From: a virus
Reading direction: 5' to 3' (one strand)
DNA: 24,635 nucleotides
IMG/VR virus record: IMGVR_UViG_3300025410_000085
Location: 1 to 24,635 of that record
Both the position numbers and the translations under genes were made by a program. Below, piece by piece: positions 1,610-10,503 of the stretch (positions within the stretch are counted from its first letter, which is position 1; every line of letters starts with the position of its first letter). The notes under the pieces were generated by a model. It saw only the letters and a list, made by a program, of their open reading frames with translations, was not told the DNA's origin and did no database searches.

Positions 1610-1786
1610 ATGGGTGGATATGATAATAAGACCTCAGTTGATCTTTCTAAAAAAAGAAAACTTGGTGGTCTAATGAATGCATTAAAGTCGGGAGATTTGT
1701 ATAAAGAATATATTAATCATCCGACAGCACAATATGAAGTGACTTTTCTTGAATATAAGAAGAAAAGAAAACAGCGTAAATATTGA
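1610..1786 (+). CDS. Small basic unknown protein, 58 aa
   Basis: A 58-residue frame starts at the ATG at 1610 (MGGYDNKTSVDL) and ends in a strongly basic tail (YKKKRKQRKY) before TGA at 1784-1786. It lies 15 bases after the previous gene and is on the same strand. The ribosome-binding site is weak (AAGAATTA). Composition is that of a small, highly charged, possibly nucleic-acid-binding protein; no family is recognised. Its 3' end abuts, or slightly overlaps, the acceptor piece of the permuted tmRNA. The coding call rests on the open frame, codon usage like the neighbours, and tight packing, so it is moderate. Confidence 0.55.
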   Translation: MGGYDNKTSVDLSKKRKLGGLMNALKSGDLYKEYINHPTAQYEVTFLEYKKKRKQRKY

Positions 1787-1836
1787 GTGTAAAATTGGAC
1801 CAGACGGGAAGTGCGACTCTTCCCCATCTCCACCAA

Positions 1837-1889
1837 AAGCATATTGTTAGCTGTCTGCAGCAGCGCCCATAAAGATACACAATATGCTT
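1837..1889 (+). repeat. Inverted repeat in the tmRNA intervening segment
   Basis: AAGCATATTGT (1837-1847) and ACAATATGCTT (1879-1889) are perfect 11-base inverted repeats starting one base after the CCA end and finishing five bases before the coding-piece 5' end. In the precursor this stem would sit next to the acceptor stem and hold the two pieces together for processing by RNase P and 3' exonucleases. The removed segment is 59 bases (1836-1894). Confidence 0.8.
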
Positions 1890-1978
1890 CTGACGGGGAT
1901 GCGTAGGATCGATGGACAAAAAATAAACTTAATTCGCTCGAAAGGTGACGAACGTAATTCGCACAAACAAAAGTAACA

Positions 1979-2017
1979 GCAAATGATAGCTCTTACGATC
2001 TTGCGTTAGCTGCCTAA
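1979..2017 (+). other. tmRNA tag reading frame (ANDSSYDLALAA)
   Basis: From the resume codon GCA (1979-1981) the frame reads ANDSSYDLALAA and ends in tandem TAA TAA (2015-2020). The AND start and hydrophobic LALAA end match the known form of proteobacterial proteolysis tags, whose terminal residues are read by ClpXP-type proteases. The bases just before GCA (AAAAGTAACA) have the A-rich spacing seen before resume codons. Adding the charged alanine gives a 13-residue appended tag. Confidence 0.88.
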
Positions 2018-2028
2018 TAAGTAGTTAA

Positions 2029-2070
2029 TTGCTAGGGTTTGGTAGGTTTCCTAGTAACAGAAAACCTACC
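2029..2070 (+). other. H-type pseudoknot at the tmRNA coding-piece 3' end
   Basis: Stem 1 is TTGCTAGG (2029-2036) with CCTAGTAA (2050-2057), including one G-U pair. Stem 2 is GGTAGGTTT (2041-2049) with AAACCTACC (2062-2070), a perfect 9 bp. The strands interleave, with a 4-base loop 1, no bases between the stems, and a short third loop, so the stems can stack coaxially. Position after the tag stop fits PK2 of tmRNA. Confidence 0.8.
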
Positions 2071-9486: not shown

Positions 9487-10067
9487 TAGAATTGCCTTAG
9501 AGATTGACGTTGAACTTGAGTTGCAGAAGCTCCAATAAATTGTTCTGTTGGTAGGAAAATTGCAATTTCCCAATCGTCAGGTGCAACCTCAACAACTTTA
9601 GAATCTAAATGAGAATACAGATATCTTTTTAAGCAAGGAGCAAATTCTCTATATCTTCTTGTGCTGCTTAAAATATTATAACTGACTCTCATTTTTGTTG
9701 TTTCATCAAAATTCTTATTGTTCAAAAGATCATAAAGTTTATTCAATAAAGCTAAACGATGTTTTGATGAAATGTAATGTAAATTTAAACCAAGAAACCC
9801 ATCACTATAATTTTCAATTGGAATGACCAACGGAAAACGATCATAATATGGAAGTACATCTTTTAATTTTGGATCATAGGAATAGAAATACATCTTTCCC
9901 ACAATAATTCTTTTTGCGAATATGTTATCAGTTGCAGAAAGAATACTTCTTCTGCTGGTTTGAAGAGTTTTCACGTTTCTTCTGAGCCAGTCTCGAGCTT
10001 TTTTGGTTCTGACGTTGATATTCTCTTTCGCCAGATTATCCCTTACTTTTTCTATTAGACTTGCCAT
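9486..10067 (-). CDS. Conserved T4-superfamily protein, candidate gp2 DNA end protector
   Basis: This is a 193-residue protein with a basic N-terminus (KKARDWLRRNVKTLQTSRR), a central FYSYDPKLKDVLPYYDRFP, and DGFLGLNLHYIS. Near the end is DDWEIAIFLPTEQF. These motifs recall a family conserved in T4-like marine phages and often placed beside gp4; gp2 (the packaged-DNA end protector) is the best guess from synteny with T4's 2-4-53-5 cluster, but I cannot confirm it from motifs. It has no membrane segment. Its start lies 32 bases inside gp4 in another frame, and its stop overlaps the gp54-like ATG. Treat the gene as certain and the function as tentative. Confidence 0.5.
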   Translation of the reverse strand: MASLIEKVRDNLAKENINVRTKKARDWLRRNVKTLQTSRRSILSATDNIFAKRIIVGKMYFYSYDPKLKDVLPYYDRFPLVIPIENYSDGFLGLNLHYISSKHRLALLNKLYDLLNNKNFDETTKMRVSYNILSSTRRYREFAPCLKRYLYSHLDSKVVEVAPDDWEIAIFLPTEQFIGASATQVQRQSLRQF

Positions 10068-10503
10068 CAGGTATTTTTAACTCTCTTTCCGTAATAATTT
10101 CAAAATGCCAACCGCGATCGGCGCAAAACTCTCTGGCGGCTTTAAACTTGGCTTCATTTACTCCCCAAGTCGCAACCTCATTAATGAAGCTTCTGGTCAC
10201 CTTTTTTGGTTTCACAGGCGGCTTAGTTTGTTTCTCAGGTTTAATCTCAATTACAAATCTTTTGATACTTCCATCCTTGCCTTTTATTTTAGCCACAAAG
10301 TCTGGAAAGTATCTATGATATTTATTGTCTAGAGGAGAGATATATGGAATGATCAGTTCTTCGTTTGACCATTCGACAACATTTTCGTTATCGTCAAACC
10401 ACTCCATAACTTTTCTTTCCCAGAGACTTCTGTACCAAATGTTGGAGACGTCCCCATAATACTTTTTCTGGTTTCTGGGGTGAAAACGACCTGAGTATGC
10501 CAT
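10036..10503 (-). CDS. 4: Head-completion nuclease-fold protein gp4-like
   Basis: T4 gp4 (gp50/gp4) completes the filled head before tail attachment. This 155-residue protein has the family's length and its restriction-endonuclease-like core: E29 in SLWERKVMEWFD, D68 in HRYFPDFVAK, and E86-x-K88 in FVIEIKP, the order of a PD-(D/E)XK site. Aromatic and polar motifs IPYISPLDNKYHRYFPDF are typical. The C-terminus is basic. It is the first gene of the minus-strand structural arm and is read from the late promoter at 10537-10530. The last bases overlap the next gene by 32. The ribosome-binding site is weak (TTGGAT). Confidence 0.88.
   Translation of the reverse strand: MAYSGRFHPRNQKKYYGDVSNIWYRSLWERKVMEWFDDNENVVEWSNEELIIPYISPLDNKYHRYFPDFVAKIKGKDGSIKRFVIEIKPEKQTKPPVKPKKVTRSFINEVATWGVNEAKFKAAREFCADRGWHFEIITERELKIPDGKSNRKSKG

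Follow-up and report, generated by a model that had tools for sequence, protein, structure and literature searches.

The DNA analyzed here (the window) is a 24,635-nucleotide, 24.6-kb virus fragment. Rfam matches and reading of the sequence identify a complete circularly permuted tmRNA gene at positions 1773-2072 of this T4-like virus of bacteria. We consider it very probable that this is a functional and long-resident phage tmRNA gene, maintained in permuted form at a fixed locus of a T4-like lineage and diversified by the swapping of modules. Its anatomy, the conservation of its pairing, its locus and its mosaicism are direct observations.

Anatomy and locus of the tmRNA gene

The gene was matched by two covariance models. 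RF04321 (tmRNA_permuted) matched 1773-2017 on the + strand with 98.8 bits (E 2e-18; gathering cut-off 47 bits), and RF01849 (alpha_tmRNA) matched 1727-2072 on the + strand with 84 bits (E 1e-21; cut-off 50 bits). The score with the beta model RF01850 was 59.8 bits, below its cut-off of 84. A sequence-only reading of this DNA had described a complete permuted tmRNA with alanine identity and a tag in a T4-like phage and had named a covariance-model search as the check. The Rfam matches, the sequence and the flanking T4-type genes bear out that description, and its gene order, encoded CCA, 59-base spacer and G3:U70 pair were correct with coordinates close to ours. ARAGORN did not find a tmRNA gene in the window, and a laxer Rfam scan near the tmRNA returned nothing further of weight. 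The features of the gene and its surroundings are as follows.

1303-1331, + strand: putative sigma-70 promoter, TTGACA-17-TATAAT, 12/12 hexamer match
1382-1594, + strand: small ORF of 70 aa, with a 43% identical relative in L088
1610-1786, + strand: small ORF of 58 aa, present only in near-identical contigs
1773-1835, + strand: tmRNA acceptor half (sequence, Rfam, parse, fold)
1773-1776 and 1782-1788, + strand: P2 5' strand, within the acceptor half (sequence, fold)
1806-1824, + strand: T arm with a 6-bp stem (sequence, parse, fold)
1825-1831, + strand: acceptor 3' strand CATCTCC, followed by A1832 and CCA at 1833-1835
1836-1894, + strand: intervening segment (spacer) of 59 nt (sequence, fold)
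1895-2072, + strand: tmRNA 5'/coding half (sequence, Rfam, fold)
1895-1901, + strand: acceptor 5' strand GGGGATG, followed by a D-like region (sequence)
1927-1938, + strand: P2 3' strand (sequence, fold)
1979-2017, + strand: tag reading frame with resume codon GCA (sequence, parse)
2032-2070, + strand: 3' pseudoknot (sequence; stem 2041-2049/2062-2070 also in the fold)
2066-2392, - strand: homing-endonuclease-like ORF of 108 aa (weak phrog_314 match, E 2.5e-4)

The acceptor half thus precedes the spacer and the 5' half. The acceptor stem GGGGATG/CATCTCC has 7 bp including the alanine identity pair G3:U70, and the T stem pairs GGGAAG (1806-1811) with CTTCCC (1819-1824) around the loop TGCGACT. 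The P2 helix, formed by 1773-1776/1935-1938 and 1782-1788/1927-1933, is predicted to hold the mature pieces together. A 10-bp stem (1838-1847/1879-1888) closes the spacer in the fold, and by analogy with known two-piece tmRNAs the spacer is predicted to be removed on maturation. The tag frame encodes ANDSSYDLALAA, which has a degradation-type C terminus; its TAA stop is followed by a second TAA at 2018-2020. The pseudoknot consists of a 9-bp stem (2041-2049/2062-2070) and a 5-bp second helix of CTAGG (2032-2036) with CCTAG (2050-2054). RNA folding of the precursor gave -83.9 kcal/mol (z = -3.1), with none of 100 shuffles as low, and recovered the acceptor, T arm, P2, spacer hairpin and 3' stem.

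Upstream of the tmRNA lie PhoH, a PDDEXK exonuclease and then the two small ORFs. Downstream are the opposite-strand endonuclease-like ORF, a cell-wall hydrolase, a gp33-type late-transcription factor, a gp59 helicase loader and gp32, with T4-type baseplate genes farther along; the closest matches of these baseplate genes are in HTVC008M, Mosig, Melnitz and cyanophages, with identities of 35-38%. The 70-aa ORF had no PHROG or Pfam match. The stop codon of the 58-aa ORF (1784-1786) sits within the P2 5' strand, and the convergent 108-aa ORF, confined to near-identical contigs of this phage population, overlaps the 3' end of the tmRNA. No SmpB gene was recognized among the proteins searched in the window, which is a fragment. 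Amid the structural genes, 10036-10503 on the - strand encodes a protein whose N-terminal domain resembles the TnsA endonuclease (Pfam E 4.8e-25) and which is possibly a T4 gp4-type head completion protein.

The promoter at 1303-1331 matches 12 of 12 hexamer positions, compared with at most 10-11 in shuffled upstream sequence. Sites with 11-12 matches occur no more than 700 bases upstream of the tmRNA at 13 of 24 tmRNA-bearing loci, a set that includes a few near-duplicates and for which shuffled sequence rarely exceeded 10. Judged from its sequence, this site is likely the early promoter of the tmRNA transcript; an early promoter likewise precedes the tmRNA in the account given by the authors of the Melnitz report (PMC9004378).

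Pairing across phage copies and the extra T-stem pair

We examined compensatory changes, the other check named in the sequence-only reading, in 30 distinct phage copies. Two-sided changes that kept the pairing were found at acceptor pairs 4, 5 and 6 (three, four and four pair types) and at T pairs 4 and 5 (three and four). The P2 helix covaries too. All acceptor pairs were formed in every copy and G3:U70 was present in 30/30; since the parser that extracted the copies required near-complete acceptor pairing and so favored paired copies, this invariance is somewhat flattered, but the double changes are not. The window copy and its relative L311 differ by A-U to G-C changes at acceptor pair 5 and at the outermost P2 pair. 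Open tags with an ALAA end or a close variant were found in almost all phage copies.

The consensus of a 5-bp T stem, a 7-nt loop and a 12-bp acceptor/T stack is usual rather than strictly required, and the window departs from it. A 6-bp T stem closing the loop TGCGACT is shared by the window, L080, L190/L308, L311 and L307, so that acceptor and T arm in this clade total 13 bp instead of the usual 12. An 8+5 reading of the stack fails because it would require C-C as the eighth acceptor pair. In the remaining distinct phage copies the T stem has 5 bp, and in two of these copies the loop has 6 nt. From bacteria, 134 permuted tmRNAs were fetched and 120 were parsed; the unparsed genes include several without an encoded CCA, and those that were aligned show the usual 5-bp stem. 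Three of four apparent 6-bp T stems in bacteria were parser register errors, leaving one genuine case, L446, among about 117 parsable genes. We had considered that the 6-bp stem might be exclusive to phages, and this was rejected on account of L446, which lies beside chromosomal-looking genes. L446 (G616:C6:2426-2715) adjoins sugar-metabolism genes and is diverged, scoring 91 bits with the alpha model. Because the permuted model accepts the window gene and because bacterial L446 shares the stem, the 6-bp T stem marks a variant and not an exclusion from RF04321. The T loop TGCGACT departs from UUCGA, and the 13-bp stack could disturb contacts with EF-Tu or SmpB. With its extra pair, the T stem offers a natural test of the stringency with which EF-Tu, AlaRS and SmpB gauge the acceptor/T stack.

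Distribution, mosaicism and spacer reading frames

Approximately 150 related viral loci were collected by searches with gp6, the exonuclease and gp32. A permuted tmRNA above cut-off was present in 36 of the 50 related viral records searched whole, the tmRNA-less records possibly being truncated. A direct DNA search of phage records with the window tmRNA, which is too diverged for this purpose, gave no match. The score of 98.8 bits for the window is below that of many relatives, which reach 147.9 bits. In Melnitz, Mosig and HTVC008M the permuted tmRNA occupies the same locus as in the window, between the PDDEXK exonuclease and gp33. A published survey counted 53 two-piece tmRNAs in phage genomes, predominantly aquatic ones (PMC9004378). 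The sequence-only reading had considered such a gene uncommon in phages, which these counts contradict: this kind of tmRNA is already reported in related marine phages (PMC9004378), and the window gene is neither rare nor a recent capture. A large lineage of T4-like phages carries the permuted tmRNA as a resident gene rather than through occasional theft.

Permuted tmRNAs were also found outside the exonuclease-gp33 locus, namely a cyano-type gene in S-CAM3 (126.9 bits) and beta-type genes in BUCT-ZZ01 and Stenotrophomonas phage DLP_6. The deposited records carry no tmRNA annotation for the permuted genes of HTVC008M (L294 2162-2371), S-CAM3 (L296 2004-2273), BUCT-ZZ01 (L297 2953-3249) and DLP_6 (L298 2339-2560). 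Standard annotation, both by ARAGORN and in deposited phage records, misses several copies.

Comparison of the copies showed that the gene is a mosaic in which spacer and tag/tail modules have been swapped between phages. L080 and L170 have spacers that are 98% identical, with acceptor halves at 71% and 5' halves at 68%, whereas L080 and L190 have halves that are 100% and 96% identical and unrelated spacers (46%; shuffled sequence about 56%). The window shares 95% identity in the tag and 80% in the tail with L170, and 84% in the tRNA-like halves with L080. One spacer core was found in nine viral contigs, in each case within a tmRNA, and phage spacers range from 4 to 142 nt. Homing by the neighboring endonuclease ORF was considered as the driver of mosaicism and is unsupported, that ORF being confined to the window's own population.

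Some relatives carry reading frames in the spacer. The first family starts right after the CCA in L448, L450, L451, L456 and L457 and begins MKSLLEIGKWLDDDKDYQ.... Its substitutions by codon position (8/0/13 and 7/1/14 relative to L448) suggest that it is translated, and AAGGA precedes the ATG in L456 and L457. The frame encodes a small conserved protein, with a ribosome-binding site directly behind the CCA in some copies. This protein runs from MKSLLEIGKWLDDDKDYQ... to ...EYNEFVKKRNYKFSSDG (L448 1501-1650; from 1501 in L456 and L457; also L450 and L451), and a relative of its C-terminal part occurs in L458 as a separate frame away from any tmRNA. The second family, unrelated to the first, is found in Melnitz-like marine phages and begins MFKWLLNLKLVVITRDYF...; it keeps a GGAG ribosome-binding site, has an in-frame 8-codon insertion and shows a third-position excess (8/7/19) in L472, closer pairs being less biased. 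This ORF, MFKWLLNLKLVVITRDYFEERNRKADAKIPKYLSG, is present in Melnitz (L160 1078-1219), where the record leaves it unannotated, and in L459-L476. A third candidate was seen in one copy only, L173. A spacer ORF in the window itself was rejected, as the only frame is one of 20 aa with a TTG start and no ribosome-binding site. Because two unrelated families occupy the spacer, we lean slightly towards regarding it as an exchangeable cassette site, which would hold a removable hairpin in the window and, in relatives, translated small-protein genes equipped with ribosome-binding sites of their own, the precursor serving there as both mRNA and tmRNA. With its ORFs in some relatives, the swappable spacer makes it testable whether a tmRNA precursor can double as mRNA.

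Function, origin and relation to known tmRNAs

On the basis of what is established for tmRNAs and of the suggestion published for Melnitz, we infer transcription, processing, charging, tagging, SmpB dependence and a benefit to the phage. Early in infection, the host-type sigma-70 promoter at 1303-1331 would give rise to one RNA carrying the two small ORFs and the tmRNA. Host tRNA-processing enzymes would cut the folded precursor at CCA1835 and G1895, dropping the 59-nt hairpin spacer, and the two pieces would stay joined through the acceptor and P2 helices. Charging by host alanyl-tRNA synthetase would go via G3:U70. During takeover, the tmRNA and host SmpB may then release ribosomes that have stalled on broken mRNAs, the stalled products receiving the tag A-ANDSSYDLALAA for proteolysis. 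The gene itself would persist at the fixed locus exonuclease - tmRNA - hydrolase - gp33 - gp59 - gp32 and diversify by module swapping.

The main functional rival is a decoy or modulator role, in which the phage RNA would alter host trans-translation instead of supporting it, by competing for host SmpB, AlaRS or stalled ribosomes. In E. coli, the endogenous tmRNA is stated to be inhibited by a phage tmRNA that has no tag, that of DS6A (PMC11915505), and the window's additional T-stem pair and its unusual T loop could change activity. However, a decoy would need neither an intact tag frame, nor a degradation-type C terminus, nor both stops, all of which the window gene has, and most relatives keep the tag as well; we regard this role as improbable.

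The sequence-only reading had proposed capture from an alphaproteobacterial host, and a recent capture of this kind appears quite unlikely. The gene does pass the alpha cut-off and fail the beta one, but for its nearest relatives, at the same locus, the beta model gives 115-124 bits and the alpha model 85-89, and alpha-type bacterial genes score 163-307 bits with the alpha model, most of them about 300 and one diverged case 91. The empirical alpha criteria from the 120 parsed bacterial genes, most of them alpha, are an ANDN tag and a GGCRGTA T loop (GGCGGTA or GGCAGTA in 103/120), and the window has neither. A tag that begins ANDS, as here, gives no indication of an alpha host. The locus is, moreover, common to distant phages. 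A tag-pattern scan of genome_contigs gave four matches: two were one-piece tmRNAs of Gammaproteobacteria, and the other two were permuted genes of a single kind, from records titled Sinobacteraceae and Rhodospirillales. No donor was found among them. Class and order searches around these genomes yielded almost no permuted tmRNAs. Our phylum sample of bacteria consisted mostly of alpha-like permuted genes with one clear beta-like gene (L321), a composition unsuited to a fair host tree; for a mosaic gene with about 130 aligned bases, a tree would in any case be misleading. Four bacterial permuted tmRNAs (L195, L196, L198 and L257) have very short spacers of 4-5 nt; in their group, 3 of 41 sampled members have a permuted tmRNA above cut-off and most lack one. 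Since both beta-like relatives and alpha-like marine relatives occupy the same locus and the gene is mosaic, the sequences suggest an old phage gene whose modules were replaced over time.

Decay into a non-functional copy is very unlikely: the window copy is among the lower-scoring of its family and is missed by ARAGORN, but none of its helices is broken, both sides of the T-stem insertion are paired, the frame is open, and compensatory changes separate it from L311. That the gene is an attachment-site remnant of integration into host ssrA, where temperate phages commonly integrate (PMC9004378), is hardly credible given the whole gene rather than a 3' fragment, the structural and replication genes of T4-like kind, the absence of an integrase from the families matched in the window, and the synteny and fixed locus in isolated relatives.

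The window gene can be placed among known systems as follows. Like betaproteobacterial permuted tmRNAs (RF01850), the window has a U-type T loop and a tag without ANDN; its nearest relatives score well with that model, but the window itself falls below the cut-off. It passes the cut-off of the alphaproteobacterial model RF01849, and its 3' end CCTAGTAACAGAAAACCTACC resembles the alpha consensus, but its T loop and tag differ from those of true alpha members. Bacterial tRNA-Sec has an 8+5 acceptor/T arm. The 13-bp stack is common to both, but in the window it is built as 7+6 and within a tmRNA, so the likeness is of length only. The closest counterparts are the two-piece tmRNAs of Melnitz and Mosig (PMC9004378) and that of HTVC008M, which share with the window the permuted order, the encoded CCA, the T4-like phage background and the locus. 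The window differs from them in its beta-like close kin and 6-bp T stem. In Melnitz a glutamine riboswitch follows the tmRNA gene (52.8 bits), whereas the laxer Rfam scan gave none in the window region, and the tag is ANDSSYDLALAA in the window and ANDNYVPVDYALAA in Melnitz.
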